Source: an uncultured Ruminococcus sp.
GTDB lineage: Bacteria > Bacillota > Clostridia > Oscillospirales > Acutalibacteraceae
Length of the DNA stretch: 62,758 nt
Direction of reading: 5' to 3'
Assembly: GCA_902778175.1 (NCBI GenBank)
Contig: CACYWT010000002.1
Coordinates: forward strand, 1-62,758
In this document: in pieces, positions 15,503-62,365 of the stretch
How positions within the stretch are numbered: position 1 is the stretch's first letter
Layout of the letters: each line of letters begins with the position of its first letter
Notes under the pieces: generated by a model
The model's input: the letters and a program-made list of their open reading frames with translations, nothing else
Told to the model about the DNA's origin: nothing
Database searches by the model: none
Made by a program: the position numbers and the translations under genes

Positions 15503-17131
15503 TTATTTTTCTATTTCCCCTATAACTTCGACTCCGCCCCGGAAGATGACAGTGATCTCATTTTTCTTCCCCATTTCTATCTTCTCCACAAGGTTGCGGA
15601 TAGTGGCATCTTCAAAGGAAGTCAACGGCGGCGTGGTTATGAAAATCTCTCTTGCCGCCAAAGCCTTCTTAATATCCAGCTGTATCGCATCCTTCCGTAT
15701 CTGGAGTTTTTCAAGCCTGTCCCTGCTTTCATATTCCAGGCTATTCAGGGATTTTAGTTCGTCCTTGAAGATTTCAAAACTGCTTCCTGTAATCATTGCA
15801 AGTATCTCTTCACGCTTTGTTTCGATTTTCTCCACCTCGGATGTGAGTTCTGTGATTTCCGTTTCAAGGCCTGTTAATTCTTCTCTGTATCTGCTCATCG
15901 TTTCTTCGATTGCTTTCCTTAAAGCATCGCTGTTGCTGATCATATCGTTTATGATCTTAAGCACCGCTCTGTGCAGTCTGTCCTCATGAACCGATACCCC
16001 TCTGGTGCAGATCTTCTTACCGTGTTCCAGTCTGTTTCCGCAGCGCCATACAGGCACGTTTCTGCCGTAGCTTTTCCACATGGTTCGCTTGAATGTTGCT
16101 CCGCAGTGCGGGCAGATGAGAATATCTGATAAGCAGTATTTCGTGACGTATTTCCTGCCAGGGTGGGTGCTTTTTGTTTCAGCGCTCCTTCTGGCAAACT
16201 CCAGATGCACCCTGTCCCAGGTATCCCGGTCAACGATGGCTTCGTGGCAATCCCGGATGTAATACTGGGGCTTCTGTCCTGTGTTCTTCGCCCTCTCATG
16301 CGTAAGGCAGTCCACAGTGTAGGTTTTCTGAAGTATCGCATCACCGACATACTTTTCATTCTGTAAGACTACCTGCACATTCGTCCTGTTCCACTTTTTA
16401 TCACCGTTTCTTTTCGGGATCGCATTTTCAGTCAGATAGGTCGCTATCTCGCCCATGCTGTGGCCTTCTGCGAACATTTTGAAGATAAGCCTCACCGTCT
16501 TTGCCTCATCCTCTACTATCACAGGCTTTCCGTCCTCGCCTGCCCGGTAGCCAAGTGTCTGGTGCAGGACGTAGCGCACCCTGCCTTCCTGAAATGCTTT
16601 CTCTATTCCCCATGTGACATTCTTGCTTATCGACTCTGATTCAGCCTGCGCAAAGGATGCGTACAGGGATATGGTGAATTCACTGGTCGCTGACAGGGTT
16701 TCAATGTTCTCCTTCTCGAATTTCACGTTAATGCCGAGGGCTTTCAACTCCCTTACAGTGTCTAAGCAATCTACTGTATTGCGGGCAAATCTACTGATTG
16801 ATTTGCATAAAATAAGGTCTATCTTCTTCCGCCTGCAGAGTTTTATCATTTTCTTGAACTCTGCTCTCTTTGTCATCTGTGTACCGCTTATGCCCTCGTC
16901 CGCAAATATCCCGACCAGATCCCAGTCAGGATGCGATGTGATAAGCTCCGTGTAGTAGTTGACCTGTGTGGCATAGGAATTCTGCTGGTTGTCCTCCTCG
17001 GTCGATACCCTGCAGTATGCTGCCACACGCTTTCTTATTCCTATGGAATCAAACTCTGTGTTCATTCTCCTTTTTGCCGGGATCAGAGTAATGTTCGGGG
17101 CCAGCTCTGTAGCTGCTACTGTTCTCGCCAT
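15503..17131 (-). CDS. Large serine recombinase (integrase type), copy 2 of the cassette
   Basis: 542 residues. The resolvase catalytic domain is at the N-terminus with the nucleophile Ser in YCRVS (Ser43 from this start) and the SISRFARNT motif. A recombinase domain follows (DEAKTVRLIFKMF, then the NEKYVGD region), then a zinc ribbon (CPHC ... C ... C) and a C-terminal coiled coil (about residues 395-490). This is the full architecture of large serine integrases, which perform directional site-specific recombination. The start at 17131 is preferred over 17137 because GAGGAGG gives correct spacing only for the second ATG. It follows the small recombinase-like gene with a 2-bp gap and ends before a terminator. 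It probably acts in integration or excision of this prophage, alone or with its neighbours. Confidence 0.9.
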   Translation of the reverse strand: MARTVAATELAPNITLIPAKRRMNTEFDSIGIRKRVAAYCRVSTEEDNQQNSYATQVNYYTELITSHPDWDLVGIFADEGISGTQMTKRAEFKKMIKLCRRKKIDLILCKSISRFARNTVDCLDTVRELKALGINVKFEKENIETLSATSEFTISLYASFAQAESESISKNVTWGIEKAFQEGRVRYVLHQTLGYRAGEDGKPVIVEDEAKTVRLIFKMFAEGHSMGEIATYLTENAIPKRNGDKKWNRTNVQVVLQNEKYVGDAILQKTYTVDCLTHERAKNTGQKPQYYIRDCHEAIVDRDTWDRVHLEFARRSAETKSTHPGRKYVTKYCLSDILICPHCGATFKRTMWKSYGRNVPVWRCGNRLEHGKKICTRGVSVHEDRLHRAVLKIINDMISNSDALRKAIEETMSRYREELTGLETEITELTSEVEKIETKREEILAMITGSSFEIFKDELKSLNSLEYESRDRLEKLQIRKDAIQLDIKKALAAREIFITTPPLTSFEDATIRNLVEKIEMGKKNEITVIFRGGVEVIGEIEK

Positions 17132-17133
17132 AT

Positions 17134-17649
17134 TCATCCTCCTCTTTCCATTGTGATCTCAACACAGTTGTATTTCTCGGCGGCAAGCTCAAATATCGCC
17201 GTGCGTATCTTATCCGCATCGCCGCCCTTATAAGCCTCTCTCAGCTTATCTTCTTTTTCAAAAACCGAAGCTGAAGGAATGTAGCAGGAACTGACCGGGT
17301 GCTGTTTTTGCGCTGTCTTATGGTTTGTTTCCGCCCTTCCTTCGCCGTACTTCTTTCCTTTCATCTCCTGCACCTTTTCAAATAAAGCGTTATCAACGAT
17401 AGGTTCGTATCCGTTCTCTCCGGCATACTTCCGGTTGTAAAGGATAGAACTTACCTTGCAGGAGGATTTCTTCTTATCTTCTGTAAAATAGTCCGGATCC
17501 GTTTCCATCATCTCTTTTGTGAGAGCATAGACACTTGCACCTTCCGATCGCTTTCTGAAGATGCATCTAACGATCTCAGCTTCGTTCAAATTAATCAGGA
17601 TTTTCCCGTCCTTCATTTCATATCCGTAAGCAAATCTTTTATAATTCAT
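17134..17649 (-). CDS. Recombinase-domain protein without a catalytic domain
   Basis: 171 residues matching only the DNA-binding recombinase domain of large serine recombinases: FAYGYEMKDG, then NEAEIVRCIF, ILYNRKYAGENGY and LFEKVQEMKGKKYGEG. The serine resolvase domain and the zinc ribbon are absent, and no catalytic Ser motif is present. It has a good ribosome site (GGAGC before ATG) and lies between two full recombinases with gaps of 12 and 2 bp, so it does not look like a random remnant. It could be a DNA-binding accessory or directionality factor. That role is inference. Confidence 0.75.
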   Translation of the reverse strand: MNYKRFAYGYEMKDGKILINLNEAEIVRCIFRKRSEGASVYALTKEMMETDPDYFTEDKKKSSCKVSSILYNRKYAGENGYEPIVDNALFEKVQEMKGKKYGEGRAETNHKTAQKQHPVSSCYIPSASVFEKEDKLREAYKGGDADKIRTAIFELAAEKYNCVEITMERGG

Positions 17650-17661
17650 ACCGGCCGCTCC

Positions 17662-19155
17662 TCATATTCTTTCCTTAAACTCAAGACCGCCTTTAAGACG
17701 GAAGGTGATCGTATCGTTATCCACGGTCGCACAGTCAAGGATAATCCCTGCCAGTCTTTCAGGCGGCACCGTTGTAACGGCATTGCAGATAAGCTCAATA
17801 TCCCCGGACATATCATCATAGTTCTCATTCAGTCTGTCCGCTCTGTCGGTTATCTCTTTAAGCTCTGCTTCAAGTTCTCCCGAGGAGCGGATCAGCGTTT
17901 CGTAATCTATGACACCCTCGGAGCAGAGTTTATGGAGAACGTACCTTCTTTGCCGGATATCGTCCGCCCTCTCTTCAAGTTCCTTCATATCTCCGCCGCG
18001 CACCGCCTCGTCCATTCTTTCAAGCTGGATCAGTATGGGCACCAGTATCTCATCGGCGTGGTGCCGCAGTTTATAGCAGATTTTCGTCCATGCTGTTTCA
18101 ATGGAGTCGTTATAAACGATATTACAACTGCAGGGCTTCACAAAGTCGAACCTTGCCGAGCATTCCCAGTATGGGTACTTGTTGTTTACAAAACAAAAGG
18201 AGCGTCCACAGGTGCATCGTATCATTCCTTTAAACGGTGTGGTAATCTTACCACGTTTTCCGGTGTACGTGCTTTCCTGTCGAAGCTCCTGAGCTTTTAT
18301 GAATGTTTCTCTGTCGATTATTGCGGGATGGGCATCCTTTATATACCAGCTGTCCACATCGCCCCGGTTGATTTTCCACTGCTCCCCCATGAAAACGCTG
18401 TAGGTTTTCTGCCAGAGGATATCCCCGATATACTTTTCCTGTTTAAGGATCTTGAATATGGTCGCATTGTTCCACACTGTTCCGGTCGGTGACGGAATGT
18501 GTTCTTCGTTCAGAAGAAGCGCTATTCTCCTTCCTCCGCAGCCGTTCAGATAGAGGTCGTAAATACGTTTTACGATTTCCGCTTTCGGCTTATCGATTAC
18601 AAGATTTCCTTTCTTATCCTTTGTATAGCCGTAGGGCACTCTTGCGATTTTCATTGTGCCGTTTGCCATACGCTTTCTGATACTCCACCGGGTGTTCTTC
18701 GAGATGGATATGCTCTCCTCCTGTGCAAGCCCCTCCATGATGGTTATCATGATTTCATCAGATACTCTTGAGGTGTCGATATTCTCCTTCTCGAAAGCCA
18801 CCGTTACGCCGAGCCTTTTCAGTTCCCGGAGTGCCATAAGGCAGTCTCTGGTATTTCTTGCGAAACGGCTTATGGATTTTGTAACAACGGCATCGACTTT
18901 TCCCCTGCGGCAGTCATCCAGCAGCCGCATGAACTCGGGTCTGTCATTTCTTGTTCCGCTTATGCCAAGGTCTGCGTAGATATCCACAAGTTCATATTCC
19001 GGGCTGTTCCGGTAAAGCCTTGTAAAATAGATTTTCTGTGCCTCGAAACTGTTTCTCTGATCCTCATTGCCTGTGGAAACGCGGCAGTAGGCAGCCACCC
19101 GTTTTTTCTTACTGACAATGGACTGATTCGGGGCAAAGACGTTGATTTGCGTCAT
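17662..19155 (-). CDS. Large serine recombinase, copy 1 of the cassette
   Basis: 497 residues. The catalytic Ser is in YCRVSTGN (Ser27), with SISRFARNT and GLAQEESISISKN completing the resolvase domain. A recombinase domain follows (VPYGYTKDKKG ... EQKYIGDILW-like), then a degenerate zinc ribbon (IRCTCGRSF ... YWEC ... CSC) and a C-terminal coiled coil. The start at 19155 follows AAGGAG by 9 nt; the longer frame to 19245 would cover the palindromic upstream region. It is the first gene of the three-gene cassette. Two complete catalytic enzymes in one operon suggest either separate roles or a heteromeric reaction. Confidence 0.9.
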   Translation of the reverse strand: MTQINVFAPNQSIVSKKKRVAAYCRVSTGNEDQRNSFEAQKIYFTRLYRNSPEYELVDIYADLGISGTRNDRPEFMRLLDDCRRGKVDAVVTKSISRFARNTRDCLMALRELKRLGVTVAFEKENIDTSRVSDEIMITIMEGLAQEESISISKNTRWSIRKRMANGTMKIARVPYGYTKDKKGNLVIDKPKAEIVKRIYDLYLNGCGGRRIALLLNEEHIPSPTGTVWNNATIFKILKQEKYIGDILWQKTYSVFMGEQWKINRGDVDSWYIKDAHPAIIDRETFIKAQELRQESTYTGKRGKITTPFKGMIRCTCGRSFCFVNNKYPYWECSARFDFVKPCSCNIVYNDSIETAWTKICYKLRHHADEILVPILIQLERMDEAVRGGDMKELEERADDIRQRRYVLHKLCSEGVIDYETLIRSSGELEAELKEITDRADRLNENYDDMSGDIELICNAVTTVPPERLAGIILDCATVDNDTITFRLKGGLEFKERI

Positions 19156-19220
19156 TAGACCAACTCCTTTTTTCTGGTGCGGAAGGTGAAGTTTTCCTCC
19201 GCATCCAAAGCACTCTATAT

Positions 19221-19241
19221 ACTGTAGAGTTAATCTACAGT
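19221..19241. repeat. 21-bp perfect palindrome upstream of the recombinase operon
   Basis: ACTGTAGA and TCTACAGT flank a 5-nt centre, 66 bp upstream of the first recombinase start. The placement fits an operator for control of recombinase expression, or a recombinase accessory site. The rest of 19156-19372 contains no gene. Confidence 0.55.
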
Positions 19242-19317
19242 ACACTATACATCACTCTTTTCGCCCCATAAGTCAACGAATAAACGGATAACATTCCCCC
19301 TGTTTCCGGTAGAAATA

Positions 19318-44987: not shown

Positions 44988-47189
44988 CTAAGGAGTATAT
45001 AACTCCTTTACCTGCGAGTAATATGCGATACCCGCAAGTACATAATGAACTATGGGCAGTGACACACCATTGCCCCACAGCTTATACTCCGCACTGTCCG
45101 AATGCGGATCCTTGAGCCACTTTACAATCTGTGCTCTCGTTTTCGGCTTTGAGGATGTCCCCATCACTTTTCTGTGTGTCTCGAACACCTCTGTCCAGAA
45201 TGATATATCCTCATCCGTAGGATTTTCTGTTTCAAGCCCTCTGCACCACCAGTCCGGGAATCCCTGCAGCCTTGCACATTCCGTAGGGGTGAGCCTTCTG
45301 ACAATGTAGTAAGGCTCCTCGATAACCGTTGGCGGATCCTTGTAGTCGGTAGCCACAAGTGTATCCGTAGCGCCGCTGTCGGAAAAATGTGTGTGGTATG
45401 AATTCTTACTTGAATGATACACAGGCTGTCCCACGGCCCCTGCTCCTCTTGCCACCATGGCAGGCTCGACTTCCTCTTCTATGGTCATGCCGAACTTTGC
45501 GTTCTTTCCCATGTTGTAAGAAGCACGGTCGATGCCGTATGCCACCTCGGATACAAAGTTCTCCTCGGGATTTGATAACATCTGGCTTGAAGGCCCCTTG
45601 GGACCGTCATTTGCCGAAAGGGATGCGTGTGTGTCCGCAAAAGCAACGGCGTGCTGCTCTATGGTATTTAAGGTATACATAGTTTCGGATTCGGAGTAGC
45701 CGTTTCCTTTATGAGAAGGTCTTGATCCGTTCCCTTCAACCACCACAACGCCGCCCTGGTTCTTTGCCGGACACTGGTTTGAAGTATCAAGGGTTCTTGA
45801 TGTTTCCGCTTCATAAAATCCACTGTTCGGATTGTCGCTCATCATGGAGTGGCTGTACTTACCACAGATGCCGTATGCCTTCTGTTCGGGATGCGCCACA
45901 GCATCAGGACCCGATGCCTGCAAAGTCGGTGATACTTCTTCATTTACGGCAAAATTAAAACCTGCCTTTTCACCGCTCGTGAATGCAGGTTTTCCGATGC
46001 CGTATGATTTCGGTTCGCATATCGCCACACCGCCCTGGTTGGCGTCCGGGGCATTGCCGCCGGTATCTATGGTTCTTGAGGTTTCGGTTTCATATACATT
46101 TGACCGGGCATTTCTTGTACCCTCGGAGGTGAGCCTTACATCAAATGTCTTCGGCTTATCCTCCACCACAAACGGCTGGTTGTTTCCGCCCGTGCCGTAG
46201 GTCGAAAGCACAGTCGGTGCGACCTCAAGAGGCCCCGTGAATCTGGTATCCTGTCCATGGTTTTCATATACAGCAGCAGGAACCGTTCCGGCTCTTAAAG
46301 TCGGTGCGGTCTCTTCTTCGTATCCTATTCCACGGCTGTCCTTGGAATGCTCGGTACAGAAGCCCGCCGCCTCTGTCACCACAGGAGGATGATGCGCTTC
46401 GGCACGGAGTGTGCTTGTCACTCCATCCGTCACATCCATCCTCTCGCCGCCCTGGTCGTTTAAGCAGATGCCTGACGCTCCAGCGCTTTCTTCAGCACTT
46501 CCGGCAGCACCTTGCCACGAGCGGAAGCCCTGTGGAGTATACCCAGACACGCCTTCTGACTCAAATAATATTTTTCCGGCACTCCCACCATCAAAATCTG
46601 CGACAAGGTAGATTCTTGAACGACGCTGGGGGACACCCCAGTATTGAGCGTCAAAAACCCTCCATGCGACTGAGAAATTATCTGCCACGATCTCTCCTGC
46701 ACTCGGCCATTTCTCAGGTCGAGGTAGATCAGTTTCACCGCTTTTGACGGAGCAGACCGCCTCGAGGACGGCTTTGAAGTCCTCGCCCTTGTTGCTTGTG
46801 AATGCGCCGGGGACATTTTCCCAGACGCAGTATCTCGGATATTTTCCATCCGTCCTACACCTCATTTCTTTTATAATTCTTATTGCCTCGTGGAACAGTC
46901 CCGAGCGCTCACCGTCAAGCCCGGCTCTCTTTCCCGCGATACTCATATCCTGACAGGGACTGCCGAAGGTTATGATGTCCACAGGCTCAAGTTCTGCGCC
47001 GTTCAGTGAAGATACATCTCCGTAGTGCTTTACACCCGGCAGGCGCTTTGTGGTGACCCTTACCGCAAAGGGCTCGATTTCCGAATTCCACACAGGCTTG
47101 ATGCCGGATATGATGCCGCCAAGCTCAAATCCCCCGGAGCCCGAGAACAGACTGCCGAGGGTCAGATGCTTATTCTGTGTTTTCTCCAT
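44988..47189 (-). CDS. C5 cytosine DNA methyltransferase with a long repetitive recognition region (733 aa)
   Basis: The catalytic domain is complete: LFSGSGGFELG (SAM binding), FGSPCQDMS with nucleophile Cys79, the ENV motif (124-126), and QRRSRIYLVADF. The closing motifs RRLTPTECARLQGFPD and WGNGVSLPI are also present. Between motif VIII and motif IX lie about 385 residues instead of a usual ~100-150. They are built from about ten copies of a short unit with the pattern TLxAxGxxAV or RTxDTxxxxPxxNQGGV, often preceded by acidic EE. This is where target recognition resides, so multiple specificities are possible. The start at 47189 follows GGAGGAGGG. It overlaps the ParB-methylase gene by 20 bp. 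Confidence 0.9.
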   Translation of the reverse strand: MEKTQNKHLTLGSLFSGSGGFELGGIISGIKPVWNSEIEPFAVRVTTKRLPGVKHYGDVSSLNGAELEPVDIITFGSPCQDMSIAGKRAGLDGERSGLFHEAIRIIKEMRCRTDGKYPRYCVWENVPGAFTSNKGEDFKAVLEAVCSVKSGETDLPRPEKWPSAGEIVADNFSVAWRVFDAQYWGVPQRRSRIYLVADFDGGSAGKILFESEGVSGYTPQGFRSWQGAAGSAEESAGASGICLNDQGGERMDVTDGVTSTLRAEAHHPPVVTEAAGFCTEHSKDSRGIGYEEETAPTLRAGTVPAAVYENHGQDTRFTGPLEVAPTVLSTYGTGGNNQPFVVEDKPKTFDVRLTSEGTRNARSNVYETETSRTIDTGGNAPDANQGGVAICEPKSYGIGKPAFTSGEKAGFNFAVNEEVSPTLQASGPDAVAHPEQKAYGICGKYSHSMMSDNPNSGFYEAETSRTLDTSNQCPAKNQGGVVVVEGNGSRPSHKGNGYSESETMYTLNTIEQHAVAFADTHASLSANDGPKGPSSQMLSNPEENFVSEVAYGIDRASYNMGKNAKFGMTIEEEVEPAMVARGAGAVGQPVYHSSKNSYHTHFSDSGATDTLVATDYKDPPTVIEEPYYIVRRLTPTECARLQGFPDWWCRGLETENPTDEDISFWTEVFETHRKVMGTSSKPKTRAQIVKWLKDPHSDSAEYKLWGNGVSLPIVHYVLAGIAYYSQVKELYTP

Positions 47190-48465
47190 TCTGCTCTCCC
47201 TCCTCCGGTTTCGGCACATCGTTATATTCAATACGCTGTCCGTCCCTGATTACATATACATCAGCGCTACTGTTATTATCTGCGAGATATTTTCTGTATC
47301 TCTCCACGGCAACATCCACGAACTTCGGCTCGAACTCCACGCCGTAGCAGGTTCTGTCTATCTGCTCACAGGCGATAAGGGTCGAGGCGGATCCGAGGAA
47401 ACCGTCAAGCACGATGCCGTTTGTCTGTGTGCTCTGCTTTATAAGATAGGCAATTAAAGGCACAGGCTTTGAGCTTGGATGACCGCAGCCGTCCTCTCGG
47501 CTGTTCTTGATTCCATCGAAATCAAAAACGGCGGTCTGTTTCTGATCGCCGTACCATTTATGCTTGCCGTCTTTTCTCCATCCGAAGATGATGGGTTCCA
47601 TATTGAATTTCCAGTCCGTTCTTGAAAGCGGCGCTCTGGGTTTTCTCCAGATAAGACCTGCGCCTACCTTGAAGCCTGCATCCTCGAAAGCATCGTAAAA
47701 AATACGGCTCTTGGATGTAGCATAGAACTCATAAAACGATGCATCTGTCGCCATAGCGTTTTTAAAGTTCGTGAAGGCTTTCATTAAAAACTCATAGCCC
47801 TCTTTATCGTTCAGGTCATCGTTTTTTATCTTTCCACTGGCACTGTCTAGGTTTACAAAGTACGGTGCATCTGTACATACCAGATTGACCTTGGTATCTC
47901 CAAGGAGAGCCTTGAAAGTTTCCTCTTTTGTGCTGTCTCCGCAGATAACTGTATGCCTGCCGAGATGCCAGATATCGCCTGCCTTAGAAAAGCACGGTTT
48001 TTCCAGCTCTTCTTCCACATTGAAGTCATCTTCCTTGCCTTCTGCATCATTACCGAAAAGATCGGCGAGCTCGTCCTCGTCAAAGCCTGTCAGCCCGATA
48101 TCAAAATCCATACCCTGCAGGGCTTCCAGTTCGACCTTTAAGAGTTCTTCATCCCATCCGGCATCGAGCGCCATTCTGTTATCGGCGAGGATATATGCTT
48201 TCTTCTGAGCCTCTGTCATCTCGTCCACAAACACACACGGCACTTCCACATAGCCTTCAGCCTTGGCTGCTGCAAGCCTTCCGTGGCCTGCGATAACATT
48301 GAACTGCTTATCAATGATAACGGGATTTACAAAACCGAACTCCCGGAGCGAAGCCCTCAGTTTATTTATCTGCTCGGGACTGTGTGTTCTTGCGTTATTG
48401 ATATACGGAACGAGCTTACTGACATCAACGAGCTGAAACTCTGTTATTGTTTTCTTATCACTCAT
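47170..48465 (-). CDS. ParB-domain N4/N6 DNA methyltransferase (431 aa)
   Basis: The N-terminal ParB/sulfiredoxin-like domain (LVPYINNARTHSPEQI, VIAGHGRLAAAK) is followed by an amino-methyltransferase. Its catalytic motif is CTDAPYF, a DAPY form of DPPY, and its SAM motif is LDGFLGSAST. The SSKPVPLIAYLIKQ region and CYGVEFEPKFVDVAV complete the fold. It probably methylates adenine or N4-cytosine in phage DNA against restriction. It overlaps both neighbours (SAM synthetase upstream, C5 methylase downstream), so the three are coupled. The Ala in DAPY is unusual and activity should not be assumed. Confidence 0.88.
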   Translation of the reverse strand: MSDKKTITEFQLVDVSKLVPYINNARTHSPEQINKLRASLREFGFVNPVIIDKQFNVIAGHGRLAAAKAEGYVEVPCVFVDEMTEAQKKAYILADNRMALDAGWDEELLKVELEALQGMDFDIGLTGFDEDELADLFGNDAEGKEDDFNVEEELEKPCFSKAGDIWHLGRHTVICGDSTKEETFKALLGDTKVNLVCTDAPYFVNLDSASGKIKNDDLNDKEGYEFLMKAFTNFKNAMATDASFYEFYATSKSRIFYDAFEDAGFKVGAGLIWRKPRAPLSRTDWKFNMEPIIFGWRKDGKHKWYGDQKQTAVFDFDGIKNSREDGCGHPSSKPVPLIAYLIKQSTQTNGIVLDGFLGSASTLIACEQIDRTCYGVEFEPKFVDVAVERYRKYLADNNSSADVYVIRDGQRIEYNDVPKPEEGEQNGENTE

Positions 48466-58833: not shown

Positions 58834-59321
58834 TGTGCATCCTCGCTTTTCGCCTTATCGGCTGATGAATTATTGTTGTTCTCGGTGTTATCCTGCTTGT
58901 TATCCTGCTTTGCTTCTGCCTGCTCTTTAGTTTCTCTTTCTGCCTGTTCCTTCGCCGCCTTTTCAGCGGCTTCTTTGGCTTTCTCTTCTGCCTTTTTTAT
59001 CTCCTCTTCAAGCCGTTCTTTGGCTCTTATGGGAGCCAGCTTTATAATAGTTTCGGGATCTATCTCAGTACTCATAAAAGCCGTATAGAACTCATAATCC
59101 TTTGAGCGGAAGAACCTCTCAAGACGGCGCTTTTCGAGCTTACAATCGTGTATCTCGTTATCCGTCAGATCTCCTTTTAACATCGTTTTCAATATTTCGA
59201 TATAATCCTCAACAGCCGTCATAACCACAGTTATCGCAAGCTCTGTATATGGATCTTCTCTTGCCGATGAACCTGTGTCCCACGGCTGCCTTACGACCAT
59301 CATTTCAGGGTGTTTTTGCAA
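58830..59321 (-). CDS. Coiled-coil phage protein (163 aa)
   Basis: The N-terminal ~95 residues are helical (ITVVMTAVEDYIEILKTML, KLEKRRLERFFRSKDYEFY). Residues 100-160 are an Ala/Lys/Glu/Gln-rich coiled coil ending in Asn/Asp repeats. The start is TTG at 59321 with AAGGAGG 9 nt upstream. Between polymerase and DUF932 genes; no family recognised. Confidence 0.7.
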   Translation of the reverse strand: MQKHPEMMVVRQPWDTGSSAREDPYTELAITVVMTAVEDYIEILKTMLKGDLTDNEIHDCKLEKRRLERFFRSKDYEFYTAFMSTEIDPETIIKLAPIRAKERLEEEIKKAEEKAKEAAEKAAKEQAERETKEQAEAKQDNKQDNTENNNNSSADKAKSEDAQ

Positions 59322-59944
59322 TTTTTCAAACCTCCTTTTCGTTTGCCGCCCATAATCTTTGATGCAGCACTAATCCTTGAAGTAAAATTTCTCACCGATA
59401 TACCCTGCCGAGGACAAGGTCAATCCCTCTGCCCACGGAGGATTTTGATTCATAATGGAGCAGACATCTTCTACCGTAGTTGAGCCTACAGGTGCTTCGA
59501 TAATCACTTCGTCATGCACATGCGCTACGATCTCAAGCCCTGCAAGCTCCATCCGCTGCATAGCCTCTGCCAACAGGTCTCGTGCTGTTGCTTGGGTAAT
59601 GTTCTCCACGAGCTTTCCGCTGTATGTTTCGCCACGCACCCACTTATTTCCTGCATTCAAGCCCTCGAATGTAACAGCCATCCTACCGAAACGATTAGGC
59701 TGGAGCCTTGGTTTTATGTATGCGAGCTTCCGCCCTGACGGGAGAACGAGCCACAGAGTATTTGCAAAAAACTGAAAACCAATCTTCCCGACAGTTCTGT
59801 CCTGATGATCCTTTATGGTATCAACAGCAGCCTTTTCCACGGCATACCAGAACTTTGTGATATTCGGATTGGTATTTCGCCAATCATCTATCAGGTCCGG
59901 AAGTTCAGATTCTTTCAGACCCATATCCAGCGCACCCATTGATA

Positions 59945-60646
59945 TCAAAGCACCGGCACCGCCGCCGTATCCACAGTTGTGGACGAGCTTGCCCGATACG
60001 GTAAAACGATGATGTCTTCCGGCATTTCGTATGTCATAAACTCTAATCTTGCGTTTATTAAACGCCAGTTTTTCCTTCTCTCGAACACCGCTGTTTCGGC
60101 ATCCGCAATTATTTCCTTTCTGCTCAATCCCTGTGATAATTTTCGAATAACCACGCTCCTTGCATACGGCCAGTATTGCTGCTCGAATCGACTTAGGACT
60201 GTTCTCCGTTGATTTACACAATTTATTTGGTGATCTACAAACCTTAAATTGCCCTTCGAATAATTTCCGTTTGTGTCGATTCGGTCTATTTCCATTTTTC
60301 TGTCTGGCACTCCAAATTTCCGAATCAAATAAAGTCCCGCCTCCGTAACACTCCGAAAGTCGAACTTTATTCCTCTTGCACCGTAGTTGTAATATTCTGA
60401 ATCCTTTGGATTTTCGCACCTTTGTTTTGCTGCGGTTAACCTTCGGTCTAACCATTTGGGAATCTGTCTTTGCTGAGTACAGTTCTGACATCCTTTTGAA
60501 AGACCTCTGGTTAAATTCCCAAGCAGTGTCCATTGAATCTTCTCGCATCCCTGACACTCTGTCAGCACATAAGGCTTGTGCCAGCCCTTTGACCATCTTT
60601 TTTCCGGGCTTATTATTTTCACCCAGCCGTACTGCTTTCCTACCAT
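59945..60646 (-). CDS. HNH homing endonuclease encoded in the +1 frame inside the polymerase intein (233 aa)
   Basis: Begins MVGKQYGWVKIISPEKRW, the usual opening of phage HNH endonucleases. A zinc pair (CQGC, CQNC) around GNLTRGLSKG follows, then RLTAAKQRCENPKDSEYYNYGARG and IKFDFRS, and the nuclease core MEIDRIDTNGNYSKGNLRFV. It ends MTYEMPEDIIVLPYRASS. The frame is +1 to the intein frame. The open frame extends up to 60820 with other possible starts. AGGAG touches the ATG at 60646 with no spacing, so the start is uncertain. Its stop lies 31 nt inside the C-extein. Family likeness is strong over the whole length, so this frame is coding in origin. A function in homing of the intein is inferred. 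Confidence 0.8.
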   Translation of the reverse strand: MVGKQYGWVKIISPEKRWSKGWHKPYVLTECQGCEKIQWTLLGNLTRGLSKGCQNCTQQRQIPKWLDRRLTAAKQRCENPKDSEYYNYGARGIKFDFRSVTEAGLYLIRKFGVPDRKMEIDRIDTNGNYSKGNLRFVDHQINCVNQRRTVLSRFEQQYWPYARSVVIRKLSQGLSRKEIIADAETAVFERRKNWRLINARLEFMTYEMPEDIIVLPYRASSSTTVDTAAVPVL

Positions 60647-60902
60647 CTCCTGTTTGTACGAGATGTGAGCCGCTGGCGGCGGCGATTCTAAACTGTATCG
60701 GCTGCGATTGCCCCTCAACCCAGACGAGGTGGTCAGGTGTTGCTGTAAGTCCCTCGTAGGTAATAACTTCTCTTTCTCCTCTGTATATGACACCATCATG
60801 ATTAATCCACTCCTCTCCATCCCAAATTTTCATATCCGTGGTTACATTCTGAATAGGTACTAATCCCTGATTTGTCAAAACCAACTCATTTTCTGCAATG
60901 CA
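59976..60902 (-). other. Intein in the polymerase O-helix (309 aa), frame shared with an HNH gene
   Basis: Polymerase-frame residues 256-564 (counted from the ATG at 61667). Block A is CIAENELVLTNQGLVPIQNV with Cys256. Block B is EGLTATPDHLVW with Thr310 and His313. Block F is VYDIRNAGRHHRFTVSG. Block G is LVHN, with Asn564 followed by Cys565. The flanks join as AELA/CGYGGG, restoring the O-helix. Residues ~340-540 have no recognisable endonuclease in this frame and are basic and irregular, because the same DNA encodes the HNH protein in the other frame. All splicing residues seen are intact, so splicing should work if the frame is translated. Confidence 0.88.
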
Positions 60903-62284
60903 TGCCAATTCAGCCACTTTTCCTTTAGACCTTAGCTCACCGTTGATGCCGTGCTTAACAACAGGTACTCCAAACATCTGCGATGCCGAAGCACAATAAA
61001 TATCATCACCACGCTTAAAGGCATCAATCCGCCATTGCTCTCCGGCAAGCCATGCAAGCACACGAGCTTCTATTGCTGAAAAGTCAGCTATGATAAATTC
61101 GCATCCGGGTTTGGGTATAAGCATAGTGCGGATAAGTTGCGAAAGTATATCGGGTGTATTTCCGTAGATGCTTTCCACCATACCAAAACAACCGAGCTTA
61201 ACAAGCTCTCTGGCTTCATCCAAAGTGGCGATATGGTTCTGAGGGAGGTTTTGCAGCTGAATTCCACGCCCAGCCCAGCGCTGCGTCCTATTGGCACCGG
61301 AAAATTGGAATAAGCCGTGTGCCCGTCCATCCTCGCAGATATACCTATCTGCCGCCTGGTATTTCTTTACACTGCTTTTCGCCATTTGAAGCCGCAGCTT
61401 CATCATTTCAAGTGCCTCTCCGTCAACGCTATGCTTATCAAGGTCAGTTATCATTGCGGAGACATCTTTTTTACCCAGCGTACTGACTTCAATACCACGC
61501 TCTTCAAGCCAGCCCTTAAGTTGACTTACACTATTCGGATTTTCAAGTCCTGTCAGGGCATACGCTCTTTTCGTCATTTCTTCGGACAGCATCAGATCAC
61601 AGGTGATCGCCTGCGTGACAAGCTCCTTATCTATCAGAACACCTCTGTCATTTATCCTCTGATCCATGTGATAATTATCCCATTCTGAATCAGGCAGCGG
61701 AAACCTCTCCAGCCGCTTTCGTATCGCCCTCTCAGTTCTTACATCCTGACGGCAGTATTCCTTAAATCTCGCCCAATCCTCCGGGGCGTCTTCGGGAAGA
61801 TTCCTTGTCCTGCCGCCATTACTCTTTGTTGGTTTGACCGCTCTCCGGCATCATCCTTTTGTTCACCAGTCTTTAATACCTCTGCAGCAGTTTTCAGTTT
61901 CAAGGGAAGAGAAAGGCTCGCCGCCCACACCATTGAGCACTGCCATGAATCAGGGGAAAGCTGTGTGCCGAAATAACGGCTTATGCAAGTACGCTCAAAC
62001 TGTGCATTCCACGCCGCCTTTATGATAGAATCGTCAAATATCGCATCTATGACCTCCTGCGGCAGCTCTTCACCGCAAGCCAGATCAATGATTTTTGTTT
62101 CCTCATCATCGAAAGCGTAAGCAAAAAGCAGGATATGAAAATCGCCTTCAACATAGCGATAGACACCGCACTTGGTAAGATCGATATCGCTATACGATTC
62201 AAGGTCAATTGATAAAACTCTTTTTTTATCTGCCAAAAAATCATCTCCATTCTTTCTATATTTTCTGTGCTTATCTGCACCTTA

Positions 62285-62365
62285 TAAGGACCGCCGGAGA
62301 GGTAATGTCTCCGACAGCTCTTGTAAAGTGCAGACAGGAGAATAATCTCCCGTCCGCATTTTTTG
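62285..62365 (-). promoter_or_regulatory. Two adjacent hairpins between DUF2815 and the polymerase gene
   Basis: One hairpin has CGGAGA/TCTCCG arms (about 62294-62312). The other has GGAGA/TCTCC within longer TGC-GAC/GTC-GCA arms (about 62329-62358). Neither is followed by a T run on the minus strand, so they may be attenuator or RNA-processing structures. On the plus strand the second runs into TTTTTT. Confidence 0.4.

Follow-up and report, generated by a model that had tools for sequence, protein, structure and literature searches.

An intein and a putative homing endonuclease encoded as overlapping genes in a phage DNA polymerase and in related phage loci

The DNA analysed here, 62,758 nucleotides from an uncultured Ruminococcus sp. 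(contig CACYWT010000002.1; hereafter the window), carries a phage DNA polymerase gene interrupted by an insert in which two reading frames are real and selectively kept open. As judged from their sequences, the polymerase-frame intein and the homing-type HNH nuclease read in the other frame are overlapping genes kept across a large phage intein family. We consider it highly probable that the insert is a class 1-type intein, that its homing endonuclease gene is overprinted in another frame and initiated internally, and that the nuclease promotes homing; splicing, translation, cleavage and homing are what we infer from the sequences.

According to this reading, ribosomes in the polymerase frame would make a precursor in which the splicing blocks of the two ends form one fold despite the roughly 190 disordered residues that separate them, and the precursor would then splice and release an intact polymerase. 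Separate ribosomes would initiate at an internal Shine-Dalgarno (SD)/ATG signal and produce a free HNH endonuclease of about 284 residues in the window. The most likely targets of the nuclease are polymerase alleles without the intein, which it would cut at the conserved insertion site; repair of the cut allele would copy the whole intein across.

Two frames in a prophage polymerase gene

A scan of 10 ORFs places the element in a prophage, with genes for terminase, portal, tape measure, primase, helicase and integrase; the contig is part of a 2.69 Mb genome. The ORF 59370-61667 matches the PHROGs families phrog_10285 (2e-101) and phrog_17 (9.2e-97) on both sides of the insert, Pfam likewise matches the polymerase itself, and the ORF aligns end to end with polymerases of Streptococcus and Gardnerella phages (H41-H47). 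The window gene is also broken upstream of the intein, the exonuclease part being a separate ORF (61739-62236); the frame break lies at about 61.8-62.0 kb, and relatives such as L002 have intact copies. Elsewhere in the window are two nearby integrase genes (15503-17137 and 17662-19245, both on the minus strand and both phrog_95) and a DNA methyltransferase gene (44988-47231, minus strand) in which, by eye, a long repetitive insertion separates the catalytic parts. The HNH profile had no match in that gene in any frame, and a search for a second out-of-frame HNH elsewhere in the window returned only two chance-level rows (E 0.55 and 0.96).

As originally predicted, the polymerase frame holds intact splicing blocks between 59976 and 60902: the insert runs without a stop from Cys1 (60902) to Asn309 (59976), contains a block B-like T-x-x-H motif, ends in His-Asn and is followed directly by the +1 Cys. 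Its N-terminal part matches phrog_26005, a family without functional annotation (1.1e-13). Residues C1, T55, H58 and N309 are invariant across the intein alignment (64 members), and 39 of 73 non-redundant members are exactly 309 residues long. The expectation of a mini-intein-like protein with a shapeless linker agrees with the AlphaFold model (64 sequences), in which residues 87-281 mostly score below pLDDT 50 and both ends mostly above 90 (mean above 90 for residues 1-80). The first part of the C-terminal splicing region is under double constraint together with the HNH tail. When this model was compared with the PDB by Foldseek, inteins led the matches, the best being NpuDnaE (E 5.6e-3, probability 1.00), with zero PDB matches at E <0.001. 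In the window, Pfam gave no match to the intein or to the HNH frame; over the alignments, Pfam and NCBIfam were nearly empty (TIGR01445 in 1 of 64, HNH_3 in 2 of 45, and single unrelated matches besides), and solved structures gave a sequence match for neither alignment. The window intein and HNH were identified through PHROGs, relatives and folds. With its motifs and predicted HINT fold, the insert appears to be a class 1-type intein that presumably undergoes protein splicing.

Insertion sites in the first set are mostly ...AELA^CGYGG..., which we take to be polymerase motif B. Intein-free polymerases also occur at this site; in the two inspected, L048 and L049, Leu stands where the +1 Cys would be. 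Further junctions, identified by eye, are YGGK^CVEN, TYGGKL^CEN, GKxxEN^CxQA and RKVAKT^C(S/T)L, together with sites in genes without assigned identity. The same kind of intein is inserted about four codons off the usual site in L123. In L138, by eye a helicase-like protein, an apparent intein C-terminus lies in the N-extein upstream of the dual-frame intein.

That the insert does not splice at all seems to us highly improbable, whether it is taken for an in-frame insertion that the host protein tolerates, as with the ShiLan domain, or for an RNA intron with an HNH gene. The first version has a parallel in the available text on the ShiLan domain, where an out-of-frame HNH with zinc fingers lies in an insertion of a phage methylase, the host frame is open and there are no splicing blocks (PMC11855218). 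In the present family, however, Cys1, block B T-x-x-H, the terminal Asn and the +1 Cys occur in 73 of 73 inteins and the penultimate His in 70 of 73, counts that are partly fixed by the search pattern that set the intein limits. The lead of intein folds in Foldseek speaks for splicing as well, as does the result that Rfam had no match up to E 1 over 59200-62300 and hence no intron model; moreover, an unspliced insert of 309 residues in what we take to be motif B should harm the polymerase.

The prediction of an HNH endonuclease in the +1 frame was borne out by profile. This frame is open in the window from 60829 to the stop at 59945, and its ORF 59945-60820 (minus strand) matches the PHROGs HNH families phrog_374 (4.9e-22) and phrog_3377 (2.2e-15). 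Residues D121, R122, Y129 and N133 are invariant in 45 of 45 aligned sequences, and C31, C34, C53 and C56 are likely to bind zinc. The AlphaFold model (45 sequences, from 60646) is ordered, with pLDDT 84. Its best match in BFVD is an unnamed phage protein (E 4.7e-10) and the first named HNH endonuclease follows at 1.1e-9; against the PDB, Foldseek gave no HNH among the best rows and no convincing fold match. The free-standing HNH of Acinetobacter phage YMC-13-01-C62 aligns at 31% identity over 76% of the query; such enzymes are related nucleases, but are encoded as ordinary separate genes. Profile and catalytic residues together suggest that the +1-frame product is an HNH-type endonuclease, which would cleave DNA and act in homing.

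Table 1. Features of the polymerase locus, in positions of the window.
Feature	Position	Strand	Basis
Phage family A DNA polymerase, C-terminal part, split by the intein	59370..61667	-	PHROGs and full-length alignment
N-extein side	60903..61667	-	Polymerase matches either side (PHROGs)
C-extein	59370..59975	-	Polymerase matches either side (PHROGs)
Putative intein, 309 codons, Cys1 to Asn309, +1 Cys	59976..60902	-	Motifs, alignment
N-terminal splicing region, residues 1-87, with Cys1 and block B T55-x-x-H58	60642..60902	-	Alignment, pLDDT, Foldseek
Intein linker, residues 88-281, predicted disordered, overlaps HNH core	60060..60641	-	pLDDT, variability
C-terminal splicing region, residues 282-309, blocks F and G, ...HN	59976..60059	-	Alignment, pLDDT
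HNH endonuclease gene, +1 frame, proposed start ATG 60799 to stop	59945..60799	-	PHROGs, fold, SD
HNH part common to free-standing phage HNH enzymes (M-V-G-K-Q-Y-G...)	59945..60646	-	Alignment
Zinc-ribbon cysteines C31, C34, C53, C56 (numbered from 60646)	60479..60556	-	Invariant, 45 sequences
HNH catalytic region E-I-D-R-I-D...N-G-N-Y...G-N-L-R-F...N	60212..60292	-	Alignment
Shine-Dalgarno-like AGAGGAG, 10 nt upstream of ATG 60799	60810..60816	-	Duplex energy

Constraint on both frames across the family

The arrangement recurs in homologues and belongs to a widespread family in two phases rather than being a single oddity. With the HNH protein as query we found 21 viral-contig loci, 277 phage records (7 with at least 80% query coverage) and 15 species-genome loci, and polymerase loci of Streptococcus and Gardnerella phages (H1-H7) encode the HNH in the other frame at 61-69% identity. 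Among 198 genomes searched (the window's relatives and its own), three matched, namely the window itself and two with weak partial HNH matches, so that only the window's genome carries the element. The set was widened by searches with the N-terminal splicing part, from which the best 80 of 175 and the best 80 of 202 related stretches were taken, and with the intein of a distant relative as query. This gave at least 143 non-redundant loci, window included, with an HNH in 127 of them: 104 in frame +1, 23 in frame +2 and none in frame 0. The query did not favor a frame, since 91 of the 127 came through the N-terminal splicing sequence alone. No HNH was found in the other 16 loci, two of which (L108 and L143) are cut by contig ends.

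The +2 phase is exemplified by EBPR siphovirus 2 (L047, JF412297 gp51), and L131-L135 and others are likewise. A quick HNH tree (120 rows) has two phase changes, a single clade being compatible with it (p-AU 0.949), and a poorly resolved intein tree of 62 columns (127 rows) has ten. One contig of 214 kb carries two polymerase loci (L004 and L005), each with a full dual-frame intein and each with ATA where the window has ATG 60646.

In 124 of the 127 loci, window included, no stop closes the host frame along the HNH. In L141, L185 and L219 the HNH frame is intact and the host frame is closed within the intein; the C-terminal intein part of L141 and L219 sits in another frame. L141/L142, L185 and L219 may represent either dead copies or an early stage in the formation of split inteins. 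For L141/L142 a natural split intein was considered; no convincing start was seen for its C-half.

Stop-codon depletion in homologues, a check that had been set beforehand, was found in both frames. Of 23 sequences entered, 21 were kept, namely the window and 20 relatives that are 63-93% identical to it in intein DNA; L009 and L023 were left out because each shares at least 95% identity with another sequence. L023 has a stop in its HNH; in L015, which was kept, the HNH ends early, beyond the stretch tested. All 21 full-length inteins are exactly 927 nt long and stop-free in the polymerase frame, whereas synonymous shuffles that held the HNH protein fixed gave 222 polymerase-frame stops (sd 10). 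In the reverse direction, with the polymerase-frame protein fixed, 102 HNH-frame stops were expected (minimum 75 in 1000 shuffles) and none was observed. The claim that the same DNA is open in both frames holds well beyond the window. The third frame served as control and was not depleted, with 277 stops against 249 and 282 expected.

In the broad set, without the exceptions L141, L185 and L219 and with the HNH protein fixed, no host-frame stop was seen in either phase, where 692 (sd 17, n=101) were expected in phase +1 and 62 (sd 5, n=23) in phase +2. The null model is imperfect: the third frame had an excess of stops in phase +1 (1038 against 978 expected, sd 14), and 260 against 249 in phase +2. 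Single long overlapping frames can arise by chance, and the double openness might be proposed as chance or as a by-product of codon usage. Depletion in both directions and in both phases, set against the third-frame control, refutes this proposal, and we attach practically no probability to it.

Heterozygosity in the 21 sequences peaks at different codon positions along the intein. At the host third position it is 0.60 over nt 1-60 and 0.51 from nt 901. In the middle, over nt 301-840, the HNH third position is the variable one (0.49-0.60), and stretches constrained in both frames separate these zones. Amino-acid selection thus switches from the host frame to the HNH frame and back to the host frame along the intein.

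Start of nuclease translation

The nuclease had been predicted to be a separate product starting at 60646. Separate translation finds support in an upstream ribosome-binding site and ATG that are enriched in the family; the start itself is probably not at 60646, and an internal SD/ATG upstream of it, 60799 in the window, is the more likely one. In the window, the duplex energy with the anti-SD sequence is -8.7 kcal/mol for ATG 60799 against +0.6 for ATG 60646.

The start analysis used 55 correctly anchored sequences (L112 left out), one of which lacks the Tyr and one the upstream ATG. The Tyr at intein codon 48 is written TAT, which creates an ATG, in 46 of 54 sequences, whereas the codon usage of these polymerases predicts 23.1; two control codons showed no excess (19 of 54 against 26.9, and 24 of 54 against 27.3). 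For the ATGs around codon 48 the SD energy averages -8.5 (n=54), compared with -2.4 for control ATGs, and 0 of 5000 draws were as low. An ATG with an SD of -7 or below was found in 37 of 56 sequences against 7.8 (sd 2.4) expected when host-frame amino acids and codon usage are held, the maximum of 400 simulations being 15. The SD is partly set by host-frame residues, with -5.7 expected against -7.65 observed.

Start positions vary. The window and L002 (93% identical intein DNA) lack the codon-48 ATG and have AGAGGAG with an ATG at codon 34 instead. In the +2-phase loci, strong-SD ATGs cluster at intein codon 30 and not at 48. Within codons 15-85, only 66 of 104 loci in phase +1 and 12 of 23 in phase +2 have an ATG with an SD of -7 or below, and no start position is universal. 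Decay of the start signal in mini-inteins without HNH had been expected, but the comparison with full inteins fell short of significance (p 0.39 and 0.28), and ATG with SD exceeds expectation in the minis too (8 of 16 against 1.7).

We rejected ATG 60646 as the main start, and that the HNH is made separately from this codon or from one nearby is a minor and very unlikely alternative. In the alignment, ATG 60646 falls on the first codon of the free-standing Acinetobacter phage HNH gene, and the position is an ATG in 38 of 55 sequences. The host Asp/Asn codon that supplies its 'AT' is moreover T-ending in 42 of 42 cases against 23.0 expected, a bias that we read as selection for Met/Ile in the HNH, though a start there also fits. 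The position has no SD, however (mean energy +1.6 over the 38 sequences), the ATG is replaced in 17 of 55, and it lies inside the constrained part, HNH-frame constraint beginning about 25 codons further upstream.

This upstream constraint, the 17 sequences without the ATG and the absence of one universal start position would also be compatible with programmed frameshifting out of the polymerase frame, in which case the HNH would be made fused behind the N-terminus of the polymerase and a portion of the intein. We hold this to be quite unlikely, given that strong SD signals with ATG are enriched upstream of the constrained part, that 54 of the 55 anchored sequences have an ATG or GTG at or upstream of codon -22, and that inspection by eye around codons -27 to -22 revealed no conserved slippery site. 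Internal initiation upstream of 60646 accordingly remains our preferred account of how the nuclease is probably made.

Allele dynamics and relation to known systems

Many alleles have lost the HNH or part of it. The 73 non-redundant first-set inteins include 16 minis (110-168 residues) and 8 inteins of 255-263 residues, in all 8 of which the HNH match stops at profile position 148-152 of 220. Both HNH ends are kept around an internal deletion in L040 and L056, an HNH fragment is kept in S. porci (L022, L025 and L041), and L023 has a nonsense codon in the HNH; the host frame is open in all of these. In L015, L063, L067 and similar loci the HNH ends about 14 residues early, and the C-terminal intein block of L015 differs in sequence, which suggests that its intein end was swapped by recombination.

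Alleles also appear to move. The polymerase flanks of L128 and L083 are 99% identical and their inteins, one mini and one HNH-bearing, only 68%; in L102 and L057 the exteins are 98% and the inteins 77% identical. Over 2556 pairs, host and intein similarity are correlated (Spearman 0.61), so vertical inheritance is common. The homing cycle, in the available text of PMC3229294, comprises full, mini and empty alleles, and the pattern of HNH loss and exchange fits such a cycle.

The many HNH-less or truncated alleles and the common vertical inheritance could also be expected if the intein splices and the HNH is a non-homing or decaying passenger, possibly with another role. This is unlikely in our view: the HNH is constrained at the amino-acid level, has zero stops in its frame among the 21 sequences (relatives 63-93% identical to the window), keeps its catalytic residues invariant in 45 sequences, and near-identical polymerases exchange alleles. 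We therefore continue to favor a nuclease that acts in homing.

Textbook inteins carry the endonuclease in frame, and an intein with an in-frame HNH was reportedly described in 1997. Canonical large inteins resemble the present family in having splicing blocks around a homing-type endonuclease and, in the available text of PMC3229294, full, mini and empty alleles. They differ in that their endonuclease is in the intein frame, whereas here it lies outside that frame and is not part of the spliced-out protein; 0 of 127 HNH loci have it in frame 0. Fractured genes, in which a free-standing endonuclease gene lies between the halves of a split intein, are said to have been reported by Dassa in 2009. 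They too have an endonuclease gene, translated on its own, placed between pieces of an intein, but the halves are in separate genes, while 124 of 127 loci here have one continuous ORF overlapping the nuclease. Group I introns with HNH genes occur in phage DNA polymerases (I-HmuI type) and likewise place an HNH gene inside a phage polymerase gene. In the present family removal would take place at the protein level and the host frame is kept open, and Rfam finds no intron over 59200-62300 of the window.

The closest published relative that we found is the ShiLan out-of-frame HNH insertion. As far as the available text goes, its authors report that they found no intein or intron and could detect no ribosome-binding site, and they propose that initiation is leaderless (PMC11855218). 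Both systems have an HNH in another frame, add no stop to the host frame and sit in a conserved part of a phage gene; from what that text gives, ShiLan is without a splicing domain, whereas the present family has one, together with SD/ATG signals, two phases and several insertion sites. The original prediction knew of no described family of this kind. This holds for the combination with an intein, none having been found in the literature searched, mostly by abstract, and fails for the out-of-frame HNH insertion as such, which PMC11855218 describes, in its available text without an intein. Priority is uncertain, since a 2025 preprint from the ShiLan authors (10.1101/2025.01.02.630785), with a title on non-canonical intein architecture, could describe an intein with an out-of-frame endonuclease.

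We lean towards a wider interpretation, in which these loci form a major class of phage inteins, at several sites and in two phases, with the HNH always out of frame and equipped with its own ribosome-binding site, and in which the overlap is adaptive for the parasite. A canonical endonuclease is in frame, so that its dose is tied to that of the host protein and to splicing; if our interpretation is true, the occurrence of two phases and never of frame 0 would mean that selection acts to have the nuclease translated separately. A frameshift in the nuclease would also break the host polymerase, and the nuclease can consequently be lost only through in-frame deletion or point mutation; the host gene would thus shield the parasite's nuclease from frameshift decay. 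With splicing and cutting divided between two overlapping genes, homing, decay and persistence would be able to proceed differently. The internal start signals offer a possible answer to how a hidden HNH is translated, a question left open by the ShiLan authors. The phage records examined label the entire stretch DNA polymerase, and the nuclease therefore escapes annotation. The more than 100 natural variants would also be a sizeable resource for research on long overlapping genes.
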